This document shows, piece by piece, positions 2 through 13,650 of a stretch of 34,428 nt of DNA. This DNA comes from a virus. The position numbers were made by a program, and so were the translations under genes. The stretch spans positions 1 to 34,428 of the IMG/VR virus record IMGVR_UViG_3300047550_002980, one strand, 5' to 3'. The notes beneath the pieces were generated by a model that saw only the letters and a program-made list of their open reading frames with translations, ran no database searches and was not told where the DNA came from. Every line of letters starts with the position of its first letter. Within the stretch, counting starts at the first letter, position 1.

Positions 2-64
2 TACACAGCGTCAGATGCGATTGACAAGATGAACGAAACGGGTATCTATGGACCGTGGAATTAG
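2..64 (+). CDS. 3' end of upstream gene, probably portal (partial)
   Basis: An open frame runs from the window edge to TAG at 62-64 and reads to a C-terminus ending IDKMNETGIYGPWN. The other two forward frames are closed by stops at 22-24 and 30-32. It overlaps the next start (ATG 48) by 17 bases, which fits a translationally coupled upstream gene. The portal is the gene normally found just before a head-maturation cluster, so portal is a positional inference only; about 20 residues are too few to recognise a family. Confidence 0.5.
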   Translation, partial: YTASDAIDKMNETGIYGPWN

Positions 65-3000
65 ACAGACGCTGTTCGCGTTTTCCCCTGAGGAGATTGG
101 GGCGCAGCGACCGGTAACCGATGATGCGTTTGAGAAGGCTCGGTCGTTCGGTGGTGACCGGTCTGCTGCTGGGAAATATGCGGCAAGCATTCGTTGGGCG
201 AATCATGTCAAGGGTGGCGGCGACGGTGGGGTGCGAACGACCGAGCAAAAACTTGCTGAAGGTCCGAAGGTCCTGACGTTTGGGCGTGACGAGATGGGTA
301 TGCCGCGCATGGCGTCGGCAGAGGAACTGCTTGACCGTTTTGGTGATTCGCCTGCCCAGTGGGAGCAGTATTTCCTTGTCAAGCACAATATTCGGCTGTC
401 TATTGGCGGTTTTGAGGGTCCGGTAGGGAGGAATCTGAAGGGACCGGAGTACCGCGACATTCCGGTGACGGAAAAGGTCCAGCAGCCGTGGATGTTTCTA
501 CGGGATGTGAGCGTGCGACCTCTTTTGGCGGCTAAGCCAGCGGAAGCGCAGCGTGAATTCGTGGAAACAAATCAGAAGGGGTTGGAGGCGACGCTCGGCA
601 TTCTTCAGGCGTTGGATGATGTTGCGAACAATGTGACGTTGGCACCGAACGCCTCGCAGCCGATGTATGTGGAGGTTCCGGTTATTACCGACCCCAGAGA
701 CTCGGGCTTGGGTGGCTTTCATGCTCAAGGACAGGGTGTCGGGTTCTGGATGACGGTTGGCGCTGGGACGGTTGTTGCCTTGCAGGAGAGGATGAATTTC
801 GGAAAGTTTTTCAGTGAAGCCGTGAGTGCCAAAACGACGGCGGGTGAGCAGGTGCTGCGAGGGGATACTGCTTTCAGCATGCCGCAACTGTTCGCTCGGC
901 AGGAATATCGGACAATTCTTCCTAAACTGACGATTGAACGGGCACAGGAAATCCTTGATAGTCGGCTGCAGGGGAAGGGGTTTCAGGCGCTGGTGCCAGA
1001 AAATGACTTTCAAGAGAATCCAGTCAAATGGGCGTTGACCGAAGACGAACGGACCGAACTAGGTCGTGCTCTGATTCGGCGTTCGGGTTATGGGTTCATG
1101 GTGCATGAACTCGGGCATGCGATTGATTCACGGGACCGTACAGGGACCGAGAGATACGGGTACTTCTCAAGTGGGATAGACCGTGCCAAAGAGTTGCAAG
1201 GCACCACGAAAGATGGCGTGCCGCTTCAGGAGAACTACAGGCAATGGAGTCGGGGCAAACTCGGGCATCTGTCCGGTTCGGTATCCCAGTATGGCGCTAC
1301 GGTAATGGCGGAGCACACTGCCGAACTGTTCGCGGCATGGTTTCTGCTGTCACGGGCAGAGGGGGTGACGGTTCGGCAAACCAGAAACCCGAACCGCATG
1401 ACCGAACAGGGTGGCGTGCGTCCCGTGTCCACAGCACTGGATGAAATGTTCAAGCCATTCCTGCGGCACTACGAGGACATAATCAAGCAGGCATCGGTCA
1501 TCGGGGACCGGCTTGCCGATTTCCCAATGACGCACCCCGTCATCGTCTTTGCAATGCTCCCTCTGTTGATGCGAATTGTCAATAGTGATGGTTTCGTCAG
1601 GATGATGAAGGACGAGGCGGAAGGGCGGCTGGAAAAAGCGAAGTCCTTCGGTGGGGATAGGTCCGCGGCAGGTCGGTATGCGGCAAGTATCCGTTGGGCA
1701 GGGCATATTCCCGAGGACGAAGCCGGTCAAAGGGAATTGCTGGGCAGGATGCTGAATAGGGCTAATCAGCAACGTCGGAAGATGATTGCTGCCGCCAAAG
1801 GCATGAATTTGGCGCTGTCTGACCTGACACAACCCAAGACGTCGCCGTCCGCGTATGGGTTGGACTCAGTATTCAACGGGCGCCACAAGATTGGCGAGGA
1901 CAAGGTAGAGGAGATTGTGGCGGCTGCCGACGCCATCGCAGAGTGCGGCGAGGTGGTGCTGCGATTGGCTGACGAAAAGTTGATTCGTGACGGCGTCTAT
2001 ACCCGTGAAGAAGTGGCTGCGGCACGTGCGACCATTGACATGCAGGAACAGGCACGGAATAAGTGGTCCGACCTACAAACATTTCTGTTGAGCGATGCTG
2101 CTGACACGGAGGCGCCGGTAATGACGTTTGCCGACGGGACAACCCTGAATCTCGGTGATGCGAAATTCAAGCCCATTCTTGCCGCTGCCGCCGACGTCAG
2201 ACAGTTCCTGAAGGACCTTGACGTTTATGTCGCAAATGGTTACCGGATTTCCGGTACCGCCGGAACAGTCAGCGAAATGTCACAGAAAGGCATATACCGG
2301 CTGGGTGGGGCTGGGGGAGAAAAACCGTTCAAGTTCACGGACGAGTACGACGGTGGGTTTGTGGCACCGCAGTTGCGGCAAGAAGCGACAAACCGAATGA
2401 GGGAGTTCTACACGTATTTGACGATGGCAACGGGACTGGAAGAGGTCTATGAGGTTCTAATTCCTGAGAGCGGAAGAGGTATGCTATTTGACGCGCTCAA
2501 GAGAACGGACCCGACCGCGTTGACGTATGTCCAGCGGAGAGCCGAGGCATTGAGGGCGCTCCTCGGAGGTGACGATGCGTTTGGCTTCGGTCAACCGACA
2601 ACGTCTACGGTCGGACCGAACGGCGAGAAGCGTCGGTCAAGTCAACGCTGGTATGAGTGGGATGCGAAGAAGAAAACGACCGGTGTACCACCGATAAAAG
2701 TTGTGGCTGTAGACGACTTTGGGGCGCATCTAATGTTGGCGGCTAGTGGTGTGCGTTCACCTGTGGCGGACGACGCGCAACGCCAGCGGGTGCACGACGG
2801 ATTATATTTCTTGCCCAACGCGGGTTTGAGCAAACTGGTTGGTTTGACGGTCGCGGTCCAAGAACGCGCAATGGGGACTGCATATTATAGTCCGGGGTCT
2901 CACGCTGTCGTCGTGCAACGGCAGACCGGAGACTCGGCTCAACTAGGTGTCCCGCCATCGGCAGGGGCAAGGTTGGACAGGTTTGGAGAGGTCGTCCAAC

Positions 3001-3374
3001 ACGAGACAACCCATGCGATTGGGGATTACGACCCAGCGACAAAACTTCTTGAGAACGCCGCGTTGTACTCCCGTGCACGCGATGCGACCGGAAAGGCGCA
3101 AGTCACTTATGGCGGCGGCAAAGCCTTCCGTGAAGGTATCTGGGATGGCGCATACGCAATCAACAGGTTCACCACCCCCTATGCCGGTCGTGTTTATAAC
3201 TACACGGATGGCAGAGAACCCCGCTATCAAGATGCTGGCGCAACCGAAATGTTGACAGTTGGAATGGAGCATCTGACAGGAACCGGTCGCGCTGGAGAGG
3301 TCATTGACACCGGTCTCGCCAATCTTGCTGCTGGCTGGCTGACTATGCTTGTCGGCTCCAAGCCGCTAAAGTAG
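48..3374 (+). CDS. Tandem-module protein: two tag motifs and two zinc-metallopeptidase-like domains
   Basis: This 1108-residue protein has two similar halves. Each begins with the shared tag: residues 33-50 (SFGGDRSAAGKYAASIRW) and 533-550. The first half then shows HELGH (H353-H357) with a candidate third ligand in EHTAELFAAWF (E426). The second half shows HETTH (H985-H989) followed by TEMLTVGMEHL (E1067). HExxH plus a distal Glu is the gluzincin signature, and HETTH with a downstream EML..G.E pattern is seen in phage-associated metallopeptidases. A Gly-rich linker follows the first tag. The role is inferred: a virion-associated or head-packaged peptidase, or a maturation factor. ATG 48 is used because the frame is closed at 30-32; its ribosome site is weak. 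There is no signal peptide. The residues between the motifs are not recognised. Confidence 0.8.
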   Translation: MDRGIRQTLFAFSPEEIGAQRPVTDDAFEKARSFGGDRSAAGKYAASIRWANHVKGGGDGGVRTTEQKLAEGPKVLTFGRDEMGMPRMASAEELLDRFGDSPAQWEQYFLVKHNIRLSIGGFEGPVGRNLKGPEYRDIPVTEKVQQPWMFLRDVSVRPLLAAKPAEAQREFVETNQKGLEATLGILQALDDVANNVTLAPNASQPMYVEVPVITDPRDSGLGGFHAQGQGVGFWMTVGAGTVVALQERMNFGKFFSEAVSAKTTAGEQVLRGDTAFSMPQLFARQEYRTILPKLTIERAQEILDSRLQGKGFQALVPENDFQENPVKWALTEDERTELGRALIRRSGYGFMVHELGHAIDSRDRTGTERYGYFSSGIDRAKELQGTTKDGVPLQENYRQWSRGKLGHLSGSVSQYGATVMAEHTAELFAAWFLLSRAEGVTVRQTRNPNRMTEQGGVRPVSTALDEMFKPFLRHYEDIIKQASVIGDRLADFPMTHPVIVFAMLPLLMRIVNSDGFVRMMKDEAEGRLEKAKSFGGDRSAAGRYAASIRWAGHIPEDEAGQRELLGRMLNRANQQRRKMIAAAKGMNLALSDLTQPKTSPSAYGLDSVFNGRHKIGEDKVEEIVAAADAIAECGEVVLRLADEKLIRDGVYTREEVAAARATIDMQEQARNKWSDLQTFLLSDAADTEAPVMTFADGTTLNLGDAKFKPILAAAADVRQFLKDLDVYVANGYRISGTAGTVSEMSQKGIYRLGGAGGEKPFKFTDEYDGGFVAPQLRQEATNRMREFYTYLTMATGLEEVYEVLIPESGRGMLFDALKRTDPTALTYVQRRAEALRALLGGDDAFGFGQPTTSTVGPNGEKRRSSQRWYEWDAKKKTTGVPPIKVVAVDDFGAHLMLAASGVRSPVADDAQRQRVHDGLYFLPNAGLSKLVGLTVAVQERAMGTAYYSPGSHAVVVQRQTGDSAQLGVPPSAGARLDRFGEVVQHETTHAIGDYDPATKLLENAALYSRARDATGKAQVTYGGGKAFREGIWDGAYAINRFTTPYAGRVYNYTDGREPRYQDAGATEMLTVGMEHLTGTGRAGEVIDTGLANLAAGWLTMLVGSKPLK

Positions 3375-3404
3375 GCATAAGCACACGGGGAAAGGAGCGT
3401 AACG

Positions 3405-3725
3405 GTGAGCGTTATGGGCTTGAACGACAAGGACGCCATGTGGACGGTTCTGGACCGGAACGGCGATATCCAGACCGTCGTTTGGTCGTCAGGCACGCTG
3501 CTCATGTCGCCCAAAATGGGCAATGTCCGTTATGCGATTGAGCAAATGATTGCGGACGAGAAGTGGGTGGAGGGTTCTGTGCTTGGACCGTTTTTCCCTG
3601 CAGGTTTGGGGGACCGGCTGCAGGCGATTGCAACGGTTGAAACAGCGTTCCGCGACCACGGCATTGTTGTTCTGGTTGCTCCGGTGGTACCTGAGTTCGT
3701 GGAGCCGAATCCGCCGGTCCAATAA
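3405..3725 (+). CDS. Hypothetical protein, 106 aa
   Basis: GTG start preceded by AAGGAG at about 3392-3397. The protein is compact with alternating hydrophobic residues (MWTVLDRNGDIQTVVW near the N-terminus) and a Pro/Val-rich end. It has no transmembrane segment or Cys motif and lacks the tag found in its neighbours. It sits between the metallopeptidase-like gene and the prohead-protease gene, so a structural or head-maturation role is possible, but I do not recognise the family. Confidence 0.75.
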   Translation: MSVMGLNDKDAMWTVLDRNGDIQTVVWSSGTLLMSPKMGNVRYAIEQMIADEKWVEGSVLGPFFPAGLGDRLQAIATVETAFRDHGIVVLVAPVVPEFVEPNPPVQ

Positions 3726-3775
3726 ACCGTGCTGCAGCCACGCATGGTGGGGGTATAGGACTAAGTTTTGGGTCG

Positions 3776-6313
3776 GTGGCACCCGTGGACTTTGAGGACG
3801 ACCTTCGCCTGATTGACGACTGTCTCGCTGGGCGCTGCACCCCAGAAGACCTGCCTGAGGCGGTCCGTGAAGCGCTGCTTGATGCCGTGGCGTTGCTGGC
3901 GTCGGACCGCGGGATGATTGCCGAACAGCCGATGGAGAAGGCGGCGGAGACGGATGCGATTCAACCGGACCTCGTCCAGAAGGCTGACACGGAGCACCGC
4001 TTCACCCTCGGTCCGTGGTATATCCCCGACCGGTACGACGCCCACGGCGAGTGGACCGATGCAGACGAACTGCAGAAGGCGCTCTGGTCCTATGTGAAGA
4101 CGGGAGACCGCGGTATTCGTCTGCAGCACAACAAGGACATTGTGGCTGGCGAATGGCTGGAGGCAATGAGTTTCCCCGCGCCGGTGACCATGTCGGTCAA
4201 GAAGGATGCGACTTCGCAGCAGGTGACGTATCCGGCTGGGACCGTGTTTCTTGGTGTTCAGTGGAAGCCGTGGGCGTGGGAACTTGTGAAGAAGGGCAAG
4301 ATTCGGGGCTTTTCTATTGGTGGTGCGGCTGGACGCATTGAGATGGGGATGCCTCAGGAGATGGGTAAGGCGAAGTCGTTTGGTGGGGACCGGTCTGCGG
4401 CGGCGCGGTATGCGGCGGAGCAGCGGTGGGCTAGGCAGCCGAAGGCTGACCGGAGTTACGACACGCTTACAAACTTCATGCGTGGGGTTCTGAAGTTCAC
4501 GACTATTGGTTTGCTGGCGCGTGCTGGCAGGGCGAAGGATGAGCGTGCCCGCCGAATCAAGGCTGGGAAGCCGAACCTGATTGACAAGATTCACATGCGA
4601 CTCAACAAGATGTTCCCTTCCTCCGATTCCAGTCAGAAGTGGAGCGGGACAGACTGGTATGACTCGGAAGAAGGGTCAACGAAGACGTTCCGTCCTAACT
4701 ATGGACGTCGGACCGGAACTGACCGTGGTCCTACATGGGAGATGGTGAGGTTGCCGAACGGGAAGACGGTCACGATGGCTGGCGGCTATTCGTCTGGGAA
4801 GTTGACGGTGTCTAAGAGCCGCGCCGAGATTGCTTTGGAGATGCGACAGTTGGCGAAGGCGAAGTCGTTCGGCGGGGACCGCTCCGCTGCAGGGCGTTAT
4901 GCCGCAAACATTCGCTGGATGCGCGAAAAGTCGGGGCAGAAGGCTGGTCCTTTCCCGAAGGTTCCGAAGACGAAGTTGGGCAAGGCTCTCAAGTCGGAGT
5001 GGGAATCGCGAAATGCCTGCTCTCTGACCACCCACGTGGATTATGACGGTCTGGCAGCGGAAATGCAGAAGCGTGGTATGACGACTGCCAGCCCCGATTC
5101 CCCAGAACTTGTTTACCGGTACCTGTCCGCGGAGCGCCGTGCGATGTGGGATGCCGAGTTGCAGAAGTTGATTGCTCCTGTGGCTGATGGTTCCGCTGAT
5201 GGTCTGCAAATCTTCATCAAGGGTGGCGGCGGAGCCTCCGGCAAGTCAACTTCTGGAAAGATTCCAGAACTCACCTACGCAGTGCCGACGACGTATGAGG
5301 ATGCGAAAGACGGTCAGCCAACCGCCGTCCTCATCAACGTTGATGACTTCAAGACGAGCACCGAGGAATTCAAGAACATCAATAGCGCTTCGCGCCGTCG
5401 CGGAGAGGACGAGTGCAAGAAGGCTGGTGTTTCACCAGACTCGCCTGAGGGCAAGGAAATCATGCGAAAGAACTTCGCCCGAGGTGGGGCGGCAACGTTC
5501 GTTCACGAGGAGTCGTCGTTGTTTGGCAAGTTGGCGACCACTCTCGCCCTCAAGGCTGGTAAGGACATAATGATTGACGGCACGATGGACAACGGTGTCA
5601 ACCAGAGGCTTGCCGAACTGGCGTATTGGAAGAGCCTGCCGAATGTTGACAAGGTGAGAATGATTATTTTCTCATGCGATGTGCCCGAGGCGGTCCGGCG
5701 GGCGTCGGCACGGGAAGTGGACAGCAAGAGTGCTTCCTACGGTCGTGTGGTGCCGCCAGACGTTCTTGCCGATGCCCACATGAAGGTGTCCAAGAACTTC
5801 CCGATTTACGCCCAATCGGACCTGTTTGACAGCATCCTCGTCATGGACACCAACTCGCGTCCCGCCACGGCTATCGCTAGAGTGGAGCAGGGCAATCTGG
5901 AGGTTCTTGACCAGACCAAGTTTGACGGGTTCCTGCGGAAGGCAGATGTGGACCCGTCGCAGTACAGGTCGCCGCTGACGAAGGGCAAGCAGCCCCTCAA
6001 AGACCCGAAGGGCGGTTTGACCGCTGCTGGTCGGAGGCATTTCAAGGAAACCGAGGGCGCGAACCTCAAGCCGGGGGTCAAGGGTCCCGCGGATACTCCG
6101 GAGAAGATGCGACGCAAGGGGTCGTTCCTGACGAGGTTCTACACGAACCTGTCGGGTCCGTTGCAGAACGAGAAGGGCGAGCCGACGCGGCTGGCTCTTG
6201 CGGCAGCGGCTTGGGGTGAGCCGGTTCCGAAGAATGAGGCTGACGCTAAGCGGCTGGCGGCGAAGGGGCGGACGCTGCTTCAGCGGTACGAGTCTCAGAA
6301 GAAGGGGAAGTGA
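3776..6313 (+). CDS. XkdF-like prohead protease fused to zeta-type P-loop kinase and DUF6321-like domain
   Basis: This 845-residue protein is composite. Residues 74-190 resemble the phage serine protease XkdF (Peptidase_S78_2): RYDAHGEW near 87, a candidate catalytic His in RLQHNKD (H118) and Ser in GFSIGGAA (S180). Tags follow at 201-218 and 364-381. Residues 475-695 look like a zeta-toxin or polynucleotide-kinase P-loop domain: GGGGASGKST (Walker A, K490), VDDFK (D523/D524), HEES (578-581), DGTMDN (601-606). Residues 744-845 (GGLTAAGRRHFK, LKPGVKGPADTPEKMRRKGS) match my memory of DUF6321. Prohead proteases cleave scaffold and capsid precursors; the kinase substrate is unknown and no epsilon-like antitoxin is visible. 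Start GTG 3776 is the first in frame with a weak ribosome site; GTG 3785 is an alternative. The stop overlaps ATG 6313. Confidence 0.82.
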   Translation: MAPVDFEDDLRLIDDCLAGRCTPEDLPEAVREALLDAVALLASDRGMIAEQPMEKAAETDAIQPDLVQKADTEHRFTLGPWYIPDRYDAHGEWTDADELQKALWSYVKTGDRGIRLQHNKDIVAGEWLEAMSFPAPVTMSVKKDATSQQVTYPAGTVFLGVQWKPWAWELVKKGKIRGFSIGGAAGRIEMGMPQEMGKAKSFGGDRSAAARYAAEQRWARQPKADRSYDTLTNFMRGVLKFTTIGLLARAGRAKDERARRIKAGKPNLIDKIHMRLNKMFPSSDSSQKWSGTDWYDSEEGSTKTFRPNYGRRTGTDRGPTWEMVRLPNGKTVTMAGGYSSGKLTVSKSRAEIALEMRQLAKAKSFGGDRSAAGRYAANIRWMREKSGQKAGPFPKVPKTKLGKALKSEWESRNACSLTTHVDYDGLAAEMQKRGMTTASPDSPELVYRYLSAERRAMWDAELQKLIAPVADGSADGLQIFIKGGGGASGKSTSGKIPELTYAVPTTYEDAKDGQPTAVLINVDDFKTSTEEFKNINSASRRRGEDECKKAGVSPDSPEGKEIMRKNFARGGAATFVHEESSLFGKLATTLALKAGKDIMIDGTMDNGVNQRLAELAYWKSLPNVDKVRMIIFSCDVPEAVRRASAREVDSKSASYGRVVPPDVLADAHMKVSKNFPIYAQSDLFDSILVMDTNSRPATAIARVEQGNLEVLDQTKFDGFLRKADVDPSQYRSPLTKGKQPLKDPKGGLTAAGRRHFKETEGANLKPGVKGPADTPEKMRRKGSFLTRFYTNLSGPLQNEKGEPTRLALAAAAWGEPVPKNEADAKRLAAKGRTLLQRYESQKKGK

Positions 6314-6567
6314 TGTACGGTAACCCGAACTCCGATGCGATTGACTATGACGAGGTTCGTCGGCTGGCAAACCGGATTTTGACCGGCGACACGTTTGATG
6401 TTCTGGTTGATGAGGGTCGCATTCAGAACCAGACACAAGCGGACTGTTTCGCTTTGGCGAGCCAAAATCCTGAGTATTGGAGCCAGTACTACCCCGACGC
6501 AGAGGTTGGGGCGGCGACCATTTCGGACGAGTTGTGGGAGCATTTCCAGAGGGTTCTAGGTCTCTGA
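6313..6567 (+). CDS. Small acidic hypothetical protein, 84 aa
   Basis: ATG 6313 overlaps the previous TGA (TGATG) and has GAAGGGGAAG just upstream; GTG 6310 would add one residue. The protein is acidic and helix-prone (DEVRRLANRILTG, ATISDELWEHFQRVLGL). It has no tag and no recognised domain. The stop overlaps the next start in the same TGATG arrangement, so it is translationally coupled on both sides to tag-bearing genes. It could be a small partner or chaperone, but that is only positional inference. Confidence 0.7.
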   Translation: MYGNPNSDAIDYDEVRRLANRILTGDTFDVLVDEGRIQNQTQADCFALASQNPEYWSQYYPDAEVGAATISDELWEHFQRVLGL

Positions 6568-7622
6568 TGGCATGCGATTGTGGCGGTGACACGCCGATGA
6601 CCCCAGACGAAATGGTGCTTGACGTCCTCCGGAAGGGTCCCCTGTGGGAACTGTCTGACAACGTCTGGGAGACCGTGGTCAAGGAGGTCCAGCGCGCCAA
6701 CGGCATCAATGCGACCACCGGTACGGTCCGTGAGATTCTGGTCTTCGGGATGGAGAAGGCGGCGAAGACGTTTGGCGGGAATAGGTCTGAGGCGGGTCGT
6801 TATGCGGCTCAACAGCGTTGGCTGAACCATACCCCTCAAGGTGGCGCTGGCGGCGGTCGGACGATGGCTGAACGTCAGGGCGGCATGCGCGGTGGTGCCG
6901 CGGGCGGTGCGATGCCTCCGCAGGGACCGGACGTCATTGCGCGTACTCCCGAGGAGGCATTGGAAGCACTGCAGCAAGGGAAGACCGTCCAGTTTACGGA
7001 TATTGCACGGGTCAACACGCTGATTGAGAAGTTGGCGGACTTTGCCGAAAAGGCGAAGAAGGGTGGCAAGGAACTCAAGTTGAACCTGTGTCAGGTCAGC
7101 ATCCCCGGGACTAACTTGTTTTGTGGCGAATCGCTGCGTGGTCCCGATGGCAAGCCGCTTCCCCGCGATGTTATGCCGCAATTGGGTGGTATTCCGAAGA
7201 AGGGCAGTCCGGCGGACGACGAGAAGAAGTTCCCTAAGAACAATGTGGGTGGGGTGGATATCGGTCCTGCCTTTGAGCAGCACCTTGCCGAAAAAGGTGT
7301 TGCGGTCAAGAGAGCAAGCGTTCCCGCTGCTTCCTTGAAGGCGTCTCAGGCGGAGTTGAAGAGTTCCTCGGTGGCGTTCCTCATGTCTCCGGAGGGACGC
7401 AAGAAGATGGAGGATATGGGCGGGACCATCTATGTGAGCAGGGACGGGTATGTGATTGATGGTCACCATCGTTGGGCGGCGCTGGTCGGTATTGACACTG
7501 AGGACGGGAAAATTGGTCAGACCCCGATTCAGGTGACTGTTGTGGATATGCCGATTCGCGAGGTCCTGAAAGAGGCTGGGACCTTTGCGGACGTTATGGG
7601 CATTGAGCGCAAGACGATTTAG
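6567..7622 (+). CDS. Tag-bearing protein with C-terminal ParB/Srx-like domain
   Basis: ATG 6567 overlaps the preceding TGA; longer in-frame starts would run through the upstream gene. The protein has 351 residues. Residues 11-65 form a helical N-terminal domain (PDEMVLDVLRKG ... TVREILVFG) related to those of the next two genes. The tag is at 68-85 (TFGGNRSEAGRYAAQQRW), then a Gly-rich linker (91-120). The C-terminal region 245-345 contains GYVIDGHHRWAAL (DGHHRW at 298-303), the signature of the ParB/sulfiredoxin-like fold used by ParB CTPases, nucleases and some phage kinases. The reaction cannot be assigned. It belongs to the tagged set 48-9366. Confidence 0.8.
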   Translation: MACDCGGDTPMTPDEMVLDVLRKGPLWELSDNVWETVVKEVQRANGINATTGTVREILVFGMEKAAKTFGGNRSEAGRYAAQQRWLNHTPQGGAGGGRTMAERQGGMRGGAAGGAMPPQGPDVIARTPEEALEALQQGKTVQFTDIARVNTLIEKLADFAEKAKKGGKELKLNLCQVSIPGTNLFCGESLRGPDGKPLPRDVMPQLGGIPKKGSPADDEKKFPKNNVGGVDIGPAFEQHLAEKGVAVKRASVPAASLKASQAELKSSSVAFLMSPEGRKKMEDMGGTIYVSRDGYVIDGHHRWAALVGIDTEDGKIGQTPIQVTVVDMPIREVLKEAGTFADVMGIERKTI

Positions 7623-7637
7623 TGGGATGATGCGACC

Positions 7638-8393
7638 ATGACGACGCCTGACGACCGCATTCTTGCCGTACTTAGGCAGACGGTGCTTAGCCACATTGAC
7701 GAGTCGGAGTGGCAGGGGATTGAGAAGGCTGTCGTTGATGCTGGCGGTATTCGGCAGGTTGAGGGGTATGCGCGGACCGTGGTGCACGGTGCGATTGAGA
7801 AAGCGAAGTCGTTCGGAGGGGACAGGTCTCAGGCGGGTCGTTACGCGGCAAATGTTCGTTGGGCGATGCAGCAGGCTGGCGACGATGCGAAACGGCGAGC
7901 GGCTGGTCAAAACGCCGCAGCGGCGCGCTTTAGACGTGACGAGGCTCCACGCGCTGCCGCGGCAGGGGGAGACCCGCCTGTACCGCCATCCACGCTCAAG
8001 AAAGTCAAGAAAACGGCAGAGAAGGTCCTTGCTGCCTATTCAAGCAAGGACGCTATTGCCGCCGACCATTTTTTTACTAGGGCGAAGGAACACGCAGGGA
8101 TGGGTCACGCGGACCGTGCTGCCGAAGCCAAGAGCAAGGCAATGGAGCGTCTGACCGTGTTGGAACGGGCAATGAAGACGGTCGCAGACGGGTTAGCGGA
8201 GTTGGAACGGATGCGACCTCGTCTGGGCGCGCATGAGGTGACCAAAGTGGTTGATAAGGCTATTGCTAAAGCCAAGAAGGATTTAGAACAGCACCGAGCG
8301 GTCGTTCGGGCTGCCGCCAAGAGCGGGGTATTGACGAAGCAGGAACTTGGCAAGTTCCGTGCCGACGCAAGGTGGAAGAGCAAGGAGTCGTAG
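7638..8393 (+). CDS. Tag-bearing paralogue with basic coiled-coil C-terminus
   Basis: ATG 7638 lies 15 bases after the previous stop. The protein has 251 residues. Residues 1-55 (DDRILAVLRQTVLSHI, GGIRQVEGYARTVVHG) are clearly paralogous to the next gene. The tag is at 58-75 (SFGGDRSQAGRYAANVRW). The rest is Ala/Lys/Arg/Glu-rich, with a region from about 115 to 240 predicted to be helical or coiled-coil (KKVKKTAEKVLAAY, DKAIAKAKKDLEQH). It has no enzyme motif. It could be a structural or DNA-binding internal protein. The 15-base spacer holds a GATGCGA heptamer (7629-7635). Confidence 0.78.
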   Translation: MTTPDDRILAVLRQTVLSHIDESEWQGIEKAVVDAGGIRQVEGYARTVVHGAIEKAKSFGGDRSQAGRYAANVRWAMQQAGDDAKRRAAGQNAAAARFRRDEAPRAAAAGGDPPVPPSTLKKVKKTAEKVLAAYSSKDAIAADHFFTRAKEHAGMGHADRAAEAKSKAMERLTVLERAMKTVADGLAELERMRPRLGAHEVTKVVDKAIAKAKKDLEQHRAVVRAAAKSGVLTKQELGKFRADARWKSKES

Positions 8394-8448
8394 ACCGCTG
8401 CCGCGGGATGCGTTTGACAAAACACGAGACGTAAAGGAAAGTACTGGG

Positions 8449-9366
8449 ATGAACGGCGAGCAAATATTTCTTGACACCCTCCGCGCTACGACACTGAGCC
8501 ATATCCAGCAGGACGAGTGGGATGCCGTCTGCAAGCAGGTTGAACTTGCTGGTGGGGTGCGGAACGTGGGCGGTCATGCTCGTACTGTGATTGTGCAGGG
8601 CGTGGAGAAGGCGAAGTCGTTCGGCGGCGACCGGTCTCAGGCTGGTCGTTATGCGGCGATGATTAGGTGGATGCGTCAGGGCAAGGGTGATGGCAAGGGT
8701 GGCGGCGGGAAGTTGTTCCCTACGATGCCGATTCCGACACGTGATGCGATGAACCGCAACCCGAAGCCTGCTGGTCCGAGGGATACCGTTCGCGGACCGT
8801 ATAAGGGTGGTCCGGCGAAGGTTGGCGACTTCAAGACGATGGGCGAGCGGAAGCCTATGGGCACGGGGGACCTTGAGGCGCTGTTGGGGCGCGCACAGTG
8901 GGAGTTGGACAAACTGAACCGTGCAGACAGGGGTCCGCGTTCCAAAGAAGAACAAGAGAGTATTGACGCTTGGCGAAAGGACCTTGAGGAAGAAATTGCC
9001 CGCTATAAGGAGGAGATGCGGTCTCGCCGTGGCGAGGGGAAGACGTTGGGTGAGGCTAAGCCGACGTCTACGAAGAGCACGGCTGACTCGGTTGACGAGG
9101 AGACCAAGACGCGAATCAAGGGCGCCTCTATTTCGGAGTTGTCGCGGATGGCGACGAAGGACATGCGACGCTCGGGGCAGAAGATTCCTCGGGGTGCGGT
9201 GCCGTATCTGGATGCAATGGAGAGCCTTGAGTCCATCAAGGATGACTACTTCATGGATTCGGGTCGCTCGGTTGTTGCCTATGCGTTGAGCAATCTGACC
9301 TCGTATAAGGGTCCGTTGGCTCGTGCCATCAAGGCGGAGTTGAAGAGGCGCCTCAAGGAAGCCTAG
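8449..9366 (+). CDS. Tag-bearing paralogue, 305 aa
   Basis: ATG 8449 is preferred because AAAGGAAAG lies upstream and the protein then aligns from its first residues with the previous gene; earlier in-frame starts overlap that gene. Residues 4-54 (QIFLDTLRATTLSHI, GGVRNVGGHARTVIVQG) are the shared N-terminal domain, the tag is at 57-74, and a Gly/Lys linker follows. Residues 130-210 are charged and helical. The C-terminal 85 residues (SISELSRMATKDMRRSG ... ALSNLTSY) form a separate helical domain I do not recognise. This is the last gene of the tagged cluster; a new promoter follows 15 bases after its stop. Confidence 0.78.
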   Translation: MNGEQIFLDTLRATTLSHIQQDEWDAVCKQVELAGGVRNVGGHARTVIVQGVEKAKSFGGDRSQAGRYAAMIRWMRQGKGDGKGGGGKLFPTMPIPTRDAMNRNPKPAGPRDTVRGPYKGGPAKVGDFKTMGERKPMGTGDLEALLGRAQWELDKLNRADRGPRSKEEQESIDAWRKDLEEEIARYKEEMRSRRGEGKTLGEAKPTSTKSTADSVDEETKTRIKGASISELSRMATKDMRRSGQKIPRGAVPYLDAMESLESIKDDYFMDSGRSVVAYALSNLTSYKGPLARAIKAELKRRLKEA

Positions 9367-9415: not shown

Positions 9416-9850
9416 GTGGCGGTAGAGGACCGTCACGGGGAGGAGGTCACTTTGGAGGGTGCAAGGGAGAGGGTGGCGAGAGCCATCGCAGAGTACGGGC
9501 GACCAGACTGGGTTGCCGCTGTCACGAAGGCTGACCGCGACGCGGTCGGTGCGGCGGGGCTGCGGGAACTGCTCGGTGAGGCGGCTGGACCGCCGATGCG
9601 ACTGGCTGACAAGCGAGCCGCCATCATGCTGTGGGCGAAGGACAACCTGTTCGCAGAGGTGACCGCCGCCCAGATGGGCGAGACGGTCGGGGTTGCTGCC
9701 GCTACTGCCAAGAAGGTCATGGAGGCTCGCCCCGACGTATTCAAGCCGATTGGACGCGGGACCTACGAGGTTCGGGATGCCGAGGCGGACCGCCAGTTCG
9801 CCCGTGCGACTGGTCCTCGGGTCGCCAAGAAAGTCAAGGTGGCGGCTTGA
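9416..9850 (+). CDS. Small protein with HTH-like C-terminal half (possible regulator)
   Basis: A 144-residue Ala/Glu/Arg-rich protein. Residues 75-125 (FAEVTAAQMGETVGV ... ATAKKVMEARPDVFK) resemble a helix-turn-helix with a following wing (IGRGTYEVRD), as in small DNA-binding regulators. This is inference from pattern. Its start coincides with the predicted transcription start. The stop lies on the -35 box of the next promoter, which contains an inverted repeat that could be its own operator. It opens a three-gene cassette (9416-11453) inserted between the tagged head genes and the scaffold. Confidence 0.75.
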   Translation: MAVEDRHGEEVTLEGARERVARAIAEYGRPDWVAAVTKADRDAVGAAGLRELLGEAAGPPMRLADKRAAIMLWAKDNLFAEVTAAQMGETVGVAAATAKKVMEARPDVFKPIGRGTYEVRDAEADRQFARATGPRVAKKVKVAA

Positions 9851-9876
9851 CAATGGGGCAGGTTCTGCCCTATGAT
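9847..9876 (+). promoter_or_regulatory. Promoter with operator-like dyad in the spacer
   Basis: TTGACA (9847-9852), an 18-base spacer, TATGAT (9871-9876). The spacer contains GGGCAG-GTT-CTGCCC (9856-9870), a perfect 6-bp inverted repeat lying between the two RNA polymerase contacts, the usual place for a repressor. GGGGCAG begins exactly 16 bases before the -10 box, as it does in the promoters at 33584 and 34219. Confidence 0.78.
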
Positions 9877-9900
9877 GTGGTTGTGGGAGAGGGGGACCAA

Positions 9901-11070
9901 ATGACCGACGAGCGGGTCTACGAGATTCTCGCGGTGCAGGAGCCGTTCCTGCGGGAGAAGATGGAGAAGTTGGCTAAGGCTGCCAAGAGGCTGGGGGTGC
10001 CCGCCCCCGAGGTCGTCATCCTCAAGCGCGAGACCCGCAAGGTCGGCGTTGACGGGCAGGAAGTGGAGCGGGACTACATCACCTACACGGTGACGGGTCT
10101 CGCTCCTAAGGTCGCTGGCGGCTACCAGTTGCTCGCCGTCATCAACGGCATCACGGACGGTGCGAACATCGTCCAGACCGCCCCGCTTGGGCGGGAGGGC
10201 TTTGACCCGACGCCGTGGCTCACCGCCGCTCTTGGCTGCGACTACTGCGGCAAGAATCGGCGCCGCGGCAAGACGCTGGTGTTCCGCGGTGAGGACGGGG
10301 TCATCAAGCAGGTCGGCTTCAACTGCGCCCGCGGCTTCTTCGGCTACCAGATTCCCGAGGTCTGGGAACTCTGGGGCGCGGACGTCACGGTCCGCGGCGA
10401 CGAGGGTCTTCCCGCCAACTGGACGCCCGCCAAGCAAATCGTCGTCCTCGCTTTCGCGGCGGTTGCGAAGGACGGTCGGTTCATCCCGCGGACCGGCTTC
10501 AACCCCACGGGCGACCAGATTTGGAAGACGCTTGACGCGAAGAAGCGGGACAACGAGCCGACGCTCGCCCCATACGTCACCGACGAGGTTCGCGCCGAGG
10601 CTCAGAAGGCGATTGACTGGCTCCTCGCTCAGGACGATGCGACCAACCAGTTCCTCTGGAACCTCCGCCTCGCCTACCTCACTGACAACGGGCGCAAGTA
10701 CCTCTATTTGCTGGCTGCTCTTCCTAAGGCTTACGGTAAGGCGATGCAGCCCGCCGAGGTCGCCACCGCCGAACCGAGGGTCATCGCGCCCATCCCGTTC
10801 GGCAAGACTGAGGTCGTCGGCACGGTGACGAACGTCACGGTCAAGGAGACCGACTACGGCACGCGGCTGGTGATGACGGTCCTCACGGACGGCGGCTACA
10901 AGGTCTGGGGCACGGTTCCCGCCAACATCACTTGGGTGGACGAGGGATACCGCGTGAAGTTCACCGCGACGCTGGAGCCGACGGCGGACGGCAAGCCCGA
11001 CTTCGCCTTCTTCAAGCGCCCGACTAAGGCTGAGATTCTGGACGAACCGGCTGTGGAGGTGACGGCATGA
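9901..11070 (+). CDS. Cys-motif and OB-like protein, 389 aa
   Basis: ATG 9901 follows GAGAGGGGGA and sits 24 bases after the -10 box; the frame is open far upstream but that part lies inside the previous gene. The protein has CDYCGKNRRRGKT (C113, C116) and QVGFNCARGFFG (C142), a pattern I associate with plasmid and phage proteins of unknown function that carry a small zinc-binding module. Residues 295-370 (VVGTVTNVTVKETDYG, YRVKFTATLEP) look like an OB-type beta barrel, suggesting nucleic-acid binding. Codons are strongly C-ending (GTC, CTC, TTC, AAC), as in the capsid gene, which suggests high expression. The stop overlaps the next ATG (ATGA). Confidence 0.8.
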   Translation: MTDERVYEILAVQEPFLREKMEKLAKAAKRLGVPAPEVVILKRETRKVGVDGQEVERDYITYTVTGLAPKVAGGYQLLAVINGITDGANIVQTAPLGREGFDPTPWLTAALGCDYCGKNRRRGKTLVFRGEDGVIKQVGFNCARGFFGYQIPEVWELWGADVTVRGDEGLPANWTPAKQIVVLAFAAVAKDGRFIPRTGFNPTGDQIWKTLDAKKRDNEPTLAPYVTDEVRAEAQKAIDWLLAQDDATNQFLWNLRLAYLTDNGRKYLYLLAALPKAYGKAMQPAEVATAEPRVIAPIPFGKTEVVGTVTNVTVKETDYGTRLVMTVLTDGGYKVWGTVPANITWVDEGYRVKFTATLEPTADGKPDFAFFKRPTKAEILDEPAVEVTA

Positions 11071-11453: not shown

Positions 11454-11519
11454 ACCCCTCTTCGCTAGAAGTTGCGGAAAACGTTGCTCTAATCTGCCAT
11501 GCGATTGGAAAAGAGCAAT

Positions 11520-12278
11520 ATGCCCGCATCTAAGAAGCGCAAGATGGTTTCCCTGCAGGTCACCGAGACCTCGGGTGTTGACCACCCCGCTCATCTGGAT
11601 GAGGGCTGGATTGTGATGAAGTCCGCATCTAACGAAAGCGAGGTCGCCGTGTCTGACAGCGACATGGAGCCGATGGACCCGTCCCTTGAGGATGCGTACA
11701 TTGAGCGAGTGATGGAACTTGAGAAGGCTCTCCTGCAGAAGGACGAGGAGATTGCCGTTCTGAAGGCTATGACCGTGGAGGTTGAGGAGGAGGAGGAGGA
11801 GGACGACGAGATGGAGGATGAGTCCGAGATGGACCTCTACAAGTCGGCTCCCGCCCCTGTCCGTGAGGCGCTTCAGAAGGCGCGTGCCGAGGCTGACAGC
11901 GCCCGTGAGGAACTCCGCAAGGAGCGCGAGGCGCGCCGTGACGAGCAGTTCGTTGCGAAGGCTGCCGGTTGGGAGAACCTCACGATTGACCCCCAGCAGG
12001 TCGGTGTTGCCCTCCGCAAGATGGCTGACTTTATGCCGGACGTCGCGGAGACCGTTGAGAAGGCGCTTGAGTCCGCGAACGCGCAGGCTGATGCTGCCGC
12101 CATCTTCAACGAGATTGGACGCGCAGGCTCGCGTGACGACTCCAATGCCTATGCGAAGGTGGAGACGATGGCTAAGTCTGCAGTCAAGAGCGGCGAGTAC
12201 AAGACCTTTGAGCAGGCTGTTGCCGCCATCGTCCAGCAGAACCCCGAACTCTATGCGGCGTACCGCAACGAGCGATAA
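11520..12278 (+). CDS. Capsid scaffold protein
   Basis: ATG 11520 is preferred over ATG 11499 because GGAAAAGAG lies seven bases upstream of it; this gives 252 residues. The N-terminus (VSLQVTETSGVDHPAHLDEGW) resembles the start of phage scaffolding/protease-associated proteins. A Glu/Asp-rich tract (EEEEEEDDEMEDE) and a long charged coiled coil (ALQKARAEADSAREELRKER) follow, typical of scaffolds. It lies directly before the decoration and capsid genes. The protease encoded at 3776-6313 is the likely enzyme that removes it. Scaffolds diverge quickly, so the call rests on composition and place. Confidence 0.78.
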   Translation: MPASKKRKMVSLQVTETSGVDHPAHLDEGWIVMKSASNESEVAVSDSDMEPMDPSLEDAYIERVMELEKALLQKDEEIAVLKAMTVEVEEEEEEDDEMEDESEMDLYKSAPAPVREALQKARAEADSAREELRKEREARRDEQFVAKAAGWENLTIDPQQVGVALRKMADFMPDVAETVEKALESANAQADAAAIFNEIGRAGSRDDSNAYAKVETMAKSAVKSGEYKTFEQAVAAIVQQNPELYAAYRNER

Positions 12279-12699: not shown

Positions 12700-13650
12700 A
12701 TGCCACAGCCCACCTCTTCGCAGGTTCATGTTGATGCGATTCTGACCAACATCTCGGTCGCATACTTCCAGCAGAACCGCAACTTCATCGCGACGCAGGT
12801 CTTCCCTGTCGTCCCCGTCTCCAAGCAGTCGGACCTGTTCTTCAAGTACACGAAGAACGACTGGTTCCGCGACGAGGCTCAGCGCCGTGCTGATGCCACG
12901 GAGTCGGCGGGCGGCGGCTACAACCTGAGCACCGATTCGTACCAGTGTGACGTGTATGCGTTCCACAAGGACATTGGTGACCAGACCCGCGCCAACGCCG
13001 ATGCCCCCATCAACGTTGACCGCGAGGCGACCGAGTTCGTCACGTCGCGTCTGATGCTCAAGATGGAGACCCAGTTCGTCTCCAACTTCTTCACGACCGG
13101 CGTCTGGGCGACCGATGCGACCCCGAGCAACCTGTGGGACAACTACACGACGAGCGACCCGCTCGGTGACATTGAGACCGGCAAGCGCGCCATTCTCTCG
13201 GTCACGGGTTACGAGCCGAACACGCTTGTCCTCGGCTACGACGTCTTCATCAAGTTGAAGAACCACCCCGACCTCGTTGACCGCATCAAGTACACGTCGT
13301 CCAACGTCCTCACCGAGGACGTCATGGCATCGCTGTTCGGTGTGCCGCGAGTGATGGTGGCGAAGTCGGTCAAGGCGACCAACAACGAGGGTGGCACCGA
13401 GGCGTACTCTTTCAACTACGGGAAGAATGCGCTCCTCTGCTACTCGGCTCCGTCCCCCGGACTTCTGCAGCCGTCGGGTGGCTACATCATGTCGTGGACC
13501 GGCGTTTCGGGCGGTCTCGGACAGAATGTGGGCGTCTCGCGGATGCGTCTGGAGCAGTACAAGGCTGACCGGATTGAGGCTGAGGTCGCGTTTGACATGA
13601 AGGTCATCGCGTCGGACGTCGGCTACTTCTTCAGCGCCTGCGTTTCCTGA
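12700..13650 (+). CDS. Major capsid protein (HK97 fold)
   Basis: A 316-residue protein with AGGAG upstream of ATG. The start (HVDAILTNISVAYFQQNRNFIATQVFP) and later segments (NTLVLGYDVFIKLKNHPDLVDRI, ALLCYSAPSPGLLQPSGGY) match the actinophage-type HK97-fold capsid family. Codon use is strongly biased to C-ending codons, as expected for the most abundant virion protein. It assembles the head around the scaffold and needs the protease and scaffold encoded upstream. Confidence 0.92.
   Translation: MPQPTSSQVHVDAILTNISVAYFQQNRNFIATQVFPVVPVSKQSDLFFKYTKNDWFRDEAQRRADATESAGGGYNLSTDSYQCDVYAFHKDIGDQTRANADAPINVDREATEFVTSRLMLKMETQFVSNFFTTGVWATDATPSNLWDNYTTSDPLGDIETGKRAILSVTGYEPNTLVLGYDVFIKLKNHPDLVDRIKYTSSNVLTEDVMASLFGVPRVMVAKSVKATNNEGGTEAYSFNYGKNALLCYSAPSPGLLQPSGGYIMSWTGVSGGLGQNVGVSRMRLEQYKADRIEAEVAFDMKVIASDVGYFFSACVS

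Follow-up and report, generated by a model that had tools for sequence, protein, structure and literature searches.

In phage T4, internal proteins and Alt bear the capsid-targeting sequence (CTS), an N-terminal propeptide 10-20 residues long, which targets these proteins and is then removed (PMC5694885). The repertoire of the polyvalent proteins has been predicted to be packaged and injected, and the effectors that are known or predicted to be carried in the head include T4 Alt and MuF-linked zeta kinases, according to the accessible text of PMC5512222; the kinds of cargo found behind the tag described below match this repertoire.

The window, i.e. the whole stretch of 34,428 nucleotides analysed here, corresponds to positions 1-34,428 of the IMG/VR virus record IMGVR_UViG_3300047550_002980. 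It harbours seven copies of a tag peptide of about 20 residues, all on the plus strand and spread over five consecutive tagged ORFs. The features are listed below; tag copies were located with a degenerate DNA pattern.

48..3374, plus strand: tagged ORF with two tags and two zincin-like HExxH segments (translation and motif)
147..197, plus strand: tag copy 1, FGGDRSAAGKYAASIRW
1104..1118, plus strand: HExxH motif HELGH in ORF 48-3374 (motif)
1647..1697, plus strand: tag copy 2, FGGDRSAAGRYAASIRW
3000..3014, plus strand: HExxH motif HETTH in ORF 48-3374 (motif)
3776..6313, plus strand: tagged ORF with S78_2 prohead protease, two tags, zeta-type kinase and DUF6321 (Pfam)
3971..4342, plus strand: Peptidase_S78_2 (XkdF) domain, residues 66-189 (Pfam, E 1.8e-11)
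4379..4429, plus strand: tag copy 3, FGGDRSAAARYAAEQRW, directly behind the protease domain
4868..4918, plus strand: tag copy 4, FGGDRSAAGRYAANIRW, ahead of the kinase region
5447..5854, plus strand: Zeta_toxin domain, residues 558-693 (Pfam, E 1.2e-7)
5999..6214, plus strand: DUF6321, residues 742-813 (Pfam, E 3.7e-29)
6477..7622, plus strand: tagged ORF with ParB/Srx-like cargo, true start likely at 6567 (phrog_2859, structure model, Foldseek)
6771..6821, plus strand: tag copy 5, FGGNRSEAGRYAAQQRW
7638..8393, plus strand: tagged ORF, cargo without a family in Pfam or PHROGs (tag match)
7812..7862, plus strand: tag copy 6, FGGDRSQAGRYAANVRW
8449..9366, plus strand: tagged ORF (opens at 8347, start likely at 8449) with phrog_13953 at its C-terminus (PHROGs)
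8620..8670, plus strand: tag copy 7, FGGDRSQAGRYAAMIRW
11499..12278, plus strand: untagged scaffold-like protein (phrog_13547, E 5.9e-52; the scaffold role is suggested by position)
12700..13650, plus strand: untagged major capsid protein (phrog_1005, E 1.1e-93)

The degenerate pattern matched the window exactly seven times and none of 100 dinucleotide shuffles, so that no copy would be expected by chance; this confirms the seven copies in five neighbouring genes reported in the initial annotation. Its XkdF-like protease and zeta-type kinase were both recovered by Pfam in ORF 3776-6313, Peptidase_S78_2 scoring 44.6 bits against a cut-off of 24. The ParB/Srx-like cargo is borne out by the phrog_2859 match of ORF 6477-7622, the model of which has sulfiredoxin and the ParB N-domain as its top, weak Foldseek matches (E 0.09). 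The proposal of two metallopeptidases stands in part: the HExxH motifs are present at 1104 and 3000, but ORF 48-3374 has no Pfam match, and thus none backing these motifs; the structure model of window 48-1727 is poor (mean pLDDT 48). Similarly, the placement of the tagged genes between portal and scaffold agrees with the downstream scaffold-like gene, whereas the portal lies outside the window and was placed, via relatives in which it is followed by MuF, just upstream of the tagged genes. The third, fourth and fifth tagged ORFs have in common a leader region ahead of the tag (6567-6764, 7638-7805 and 8449-8613) of the form ...EVxxAGGxxxVxGYAxxVLxxAIxKA, which is helical in the model and is carried by many other contigs. 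A conserved untagged gene (9631-11070) separates the last tagged gene from the scaffold, and also occurs at L077:2586-3755, L089:12523-13704 and L092:5754-6944.

Search of IMG/VR with the degenerate DNA pattern detected the tag in 62 stretches of 49 contigs, with up to 13 copies per contig. Alignment of 158 distinct tag contexts revealed information content that is high at about −3 to +21 and drops to near random in the flanks, and seven columns are invariant throughout, though up to three mismatches were permitted. A class B form, FASRSEAGRYAAxxRW, brings in further contigs, and the genes alongside classes C (KADRSAAGRKAALARWGNR) and D (KAMSRSEAGKVAADARWKNHV) include homologous portal, MuF, protease, scaffold and capsid genes. 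The tag is not in Pfam, and phrog_31590 weakly overlaps one class B tag, with no single stretch passing. Megablast of the window against cultured phages gave no match, nor did tblastn of the class A, B and C/D peptides against INPHARED at E 10, a search in which such short queries are insensitive to diverged tags. The sole GTDB match was rejected as chance, since it lies outside any open frame of at least 40 residues, and nothing useful came out of a comparison with the KGG motif. The full tag has thus not turned out to be a known domain with another role or to be widespread outside phage head clusters, either of which would have contradicted the initial annotation; a shorter core, RSxAGRxAAxARW, does occur outside. 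This core is found singly in unrelated phage proteins (loci L189, L199, L207, L209, L216, L191, L211 and L213), for example in basic linkers that follow N-terminal regions with HDWxxH/HEWxxH segments, or as C-terminal tails.

The gene order in the fetched contigs is TerL, sometimes tagged genes, portal, MuF, tagged genes, S78_2 protease, tagged genes, scaffold, major capsid protein (MCP), tail and tape measure. The S78_2 (XkdF-type) prohead protease is usually tagged, while the portal, scaffold and major capsid protein are without tag. Sixteen contigs include an MCP; of the 107 tags on these, 99 fall in the interval from TerL or portal to the MCP, as against 47 expected by length, a clustering reached in none of 100,000 simulations. 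Among ORFs of at least 150 residues, 157/186 between MuF and scaffold are tagged versus 23/271 elsewhere, in counts drawn from overlapping pieces that include some ORFs twice. A few tagged genes lie beyond the head module (G028:1938-2717, G031:4362-6462 and G033:34869-37555), and untagged Dps/ferritin-like genes with an HWNVKG motif, recognized by eye, lie within it (L077:6458-7111 and L224:10505-11020).

Of the 178 complete tagged ORFs, 49 contain more than one tag (two to five). A segment of no fewer than 103 residues, usually a separate domain, follows each tag in these 178 ORFs; among 246 tags, a segment shorter than 60 residues never follows. The first tag begins 15-399 residues in (median 62). 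Tags are also found between the domains of polyproteins and, in relatives, directly behind MuF; MuF is a separate, untagged gene in class A/B genomes, and G041 has a MuF-headed tagged polyprotein. The Pfam families of 126 representatives include Zeta_toxin (11), S78_2 (11), DUF3626 (9), ADPrib_exo_Tox (9), DUF5872 (7), DUF6321 (6), several GNAT, HNH (2) and single others, and PHROGs adds Alt-like RNA-polymerase ADP-ribosyltransferases and the ParB-like phrog_2859. The viral search thus agrees with what the initial annotation had anticipated, i.e. matches clustering in a syntenic head module with unrelated effector-type domains behind the tag. As leaders are homologous in only 16/348 within-contig pairs and cargo in 27/894, the tag is the sole common element of the tagged proteins within a contig. 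In 21 loci (L017, L018, L020 and 18 others), the tag is preceded by a leader of the type MPWHFKSEGDQVLVVRDRDQKVVGRHANRKKA, which recalls DUF2188 by eye; a class C tagged protein (L173:1339-2472) resembles, by eye only, a type IB topoisomerase.

A second, unrelated tag, K[FA]NP[YN]HDExGRF[TAS] (KFNPYHDExGRFT), occupies the same slots in phage head modules. In contig G004, the form K-F-N-P-Y/N-H-D-E-L-G-R-F-T/S is also present at the N-terminus of two module genes. The second tag is widespread in IMG/VR, more so than the first, with up to 10 per contig among the matches listed, and is often located directly behind a MuF domain, at least 23 MuF ORFs being tagged. In L286 and L302, a MuF-headed polyprotein of 2594 residues has it between its domains, and further module genes bear it as well; portal, phrog_2859 and S78_2 are present there, and the scaffold belongs to the same family as in the first-tag phages. 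The two tags go with the same families of protease and cargo, which speaks for the head-cargo reading of the first. MW202897.1 (L232) bears it on a portal extension and on the protease. Further loci with this tag are L095 (8469-9917 and 12302-13264), L296, L306 and L307. Two unrelated tags in the same slots suggest a general principle, and it is plausible, though still rather doubtful, that tailed phages use several unrelated, interchangeable, genome-specific peptide labels, with any cargo behind them, as a general language for head-carried effectors.

Judged from the sequences, we lean slightly towards the first tag being a transplantable head-cargo tag that is docked by one procapsid partner, leading to enclosure and delivery with the DNA. 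In such a mechanism, separately encoded effector domains would each be preceded, N-terminally, by the tag, a short exposed helix within a flexible linker, and one genome-encoded procapsid partner (scaffold, portal/MuF complex or prohead protease) would dock this helix at head assembly; docking would enclose many unrelated proteins together in the head, from which they would exit with the DNA at infection. The address to scaffold, portal or capsid interior proposed in the initial annotation gains from the restriction to the head module, the unrelated effector domains, the absence of the tag from Pfam and its in-step variation within genomes. Several points weigh against an address: a single tag ought to be enough to enclose a polypeptide, but as many as five tags of the first type are found in one ORF; MuF-headed polyproteins bear tags too; a pure address could be C-terminal, which the tag never is; and the few tagged genes of G028, G031 and G033 lie beyond the head module.

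The tag could instead be a maturation cleavage site, at which the S78_2 prohead protease would cut in the procapsid and free the cargo from leader, MuF, portal or the protease itself. This alternative, also raised in the initial annotation and in our view possible but unlikely, gains weight because tags lie between polyprotein domains, directly behind the protease domain in the window and, in relatives, behind MuF, which is the strongest argument for cleavage; in every case the tag precedes a domain, relatives have MuF-headed polyproteins with tags between their domains, and the second tag is placed likewise on the MuF ORFs and on the portal extension and protease of MW202897.1. A strict motif of about 20 residues is, however, long for a prohead-protease site, those of T4 being LxE/IxE. 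Moreover, the S78_2 protease is also present in untagged phages, and inspection of the window scaffold by eye revealed nothing resembling the site. In the model of ORF 6477-7622, a helical leader domain and the cargo are joined by a linker of low confidence, within which the tag forms a short helix (104-116). The conserved positions of the tag recur with the period of a helix and not with that of an extended strand (439/20,000 shuffles were equally strong), a result that is partly circular, as the regex fixed several columns. The modelled linker helix and the helix-periodic conservation favour a docking helix over a cleavage site. By analogy with the T4 CTS, docking and cleavage at the tag may both be true together.

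The peptide, and not the DNA, is conserved among the window copies, as their codons at conserved residues vary, with some residual likeness: the same codon is used in 123/271 same-residue pairs, against 88 expected from codon usage, and DNA identity is 61-78%. The statement that synonymous sites vary while selection acts on the peptide is hence upheld. Cassette-like architecture and the many fusions could also be explained if the tag were a recombination joint for shuffling cargo cassettes, alike through copying and not function; with the peptide fixed amid such divergent DNA and mixed synonymous codons, this explanation is highly improbable.

Where two tags sit on non-homologous cargo, their identity is 70% if both come from one genome and 57% if they come from different genomes, a difference reached in none of 500 label permutations, and one in which clade structure could contribute to the lower value, as the between-genome pairs include different clades. 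Such likeness on unrelated cargo fits what would be expected, on the sequence comparison, if one genome-encoded partner reads the tags; recent copying or conversion could partly explain it. Tag similarity tracks that of the portal (rho 0.79), scaffold (0.76) and protease (0.76) alike, and no single partner stands out. A basic nucleic-acid-binding or generic linker motif, suited to proteins that share the head with DNA and without any address, would account for the positive net charge of the tag and for the single occurrences of its core in unrelated phage proteins, including basic linkers and C-terminal tails. This is improbable, as the full tag is confined to the head module, and charge alone needs neither the invariant F, A, A and W nor concerted change within genomes.

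Among cultured phages, the Arthrobacter phages Ottawa, Kharcho, Kovu and Laroye are closest in their MCP (up to 54.6%) and in their portal (up to 53.8%) and share the gene order, which suggests actinobacterial hosts for the tagged phages. In the Laroyevirus-type phages (Laroye, Kovu and Ottawa), the portal, MuF, S78_2 protease and MCP follow one another as in the tagged phages, yet HMM and regex searches found no tag in these three, and neither did tblastn in Laroye. Unlike in the tagged phages, their S78_2 is C-terminal and their cargo genes are small and untagged. As these untagged relatives retain the head genes, the tag accompanies the cargo arrays and is not needed for head building.

If the head-cargo reading is right, the peptide would be a new cargo-loading tag for protein delivery, a sequence search with it would list the head-carried effectors of uncultivated phages, including many without a known domain, and protein selection by the siphophage head would become testable.

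Like the T4 CTS, the tag is a short peptide common to several different head-region proteins with a prohead protease encoded alongside; the CTS is, however, an N-terminal propeptide, whereas the tag is internal, can occur several times in one polypeptide and has an unrelated sequence, and thus falls outside the CTS as defined. The polyvalent proteins (Iyer et al. 2017, PMC5512222, accessible text) have the same cargo (ARTs, zeta kinases, ParB-like domains, metallopeptidases and GNAT) near virion genes, but they are multi-domain chains or MuF/portal fusions, while in the tagged phages many separate genes share a tag; no shared tag on polyvalent proteins came up in that text. The tagged genes do lie among virion genes, and the chain of S78_2, zeta-type kinase and DUF6321 combines disparate effector domains as polyvalent proteins do, whereas the single-cargo ORFs do not; judged by the features examined, many of the cargo proteins count as polyvalent. 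In the case of MuF toxins (Jamet et al. 2017, PMC5576092, the main text of which does not contain the word 'motif'), a MuF gene in the portal module has variable attached effectors, as here; those effectors are fused C-terminally to MuF, whereas here they are mostly unfused, except in G041 and with the second tag. Literature searches, of partial coverage and with motif text that is hard to search, returned no description of a tag of this sequence, and by analogy its closest known kind would be the T4 capsid-targeting sequence together with the MuF and polyvalent effectors.
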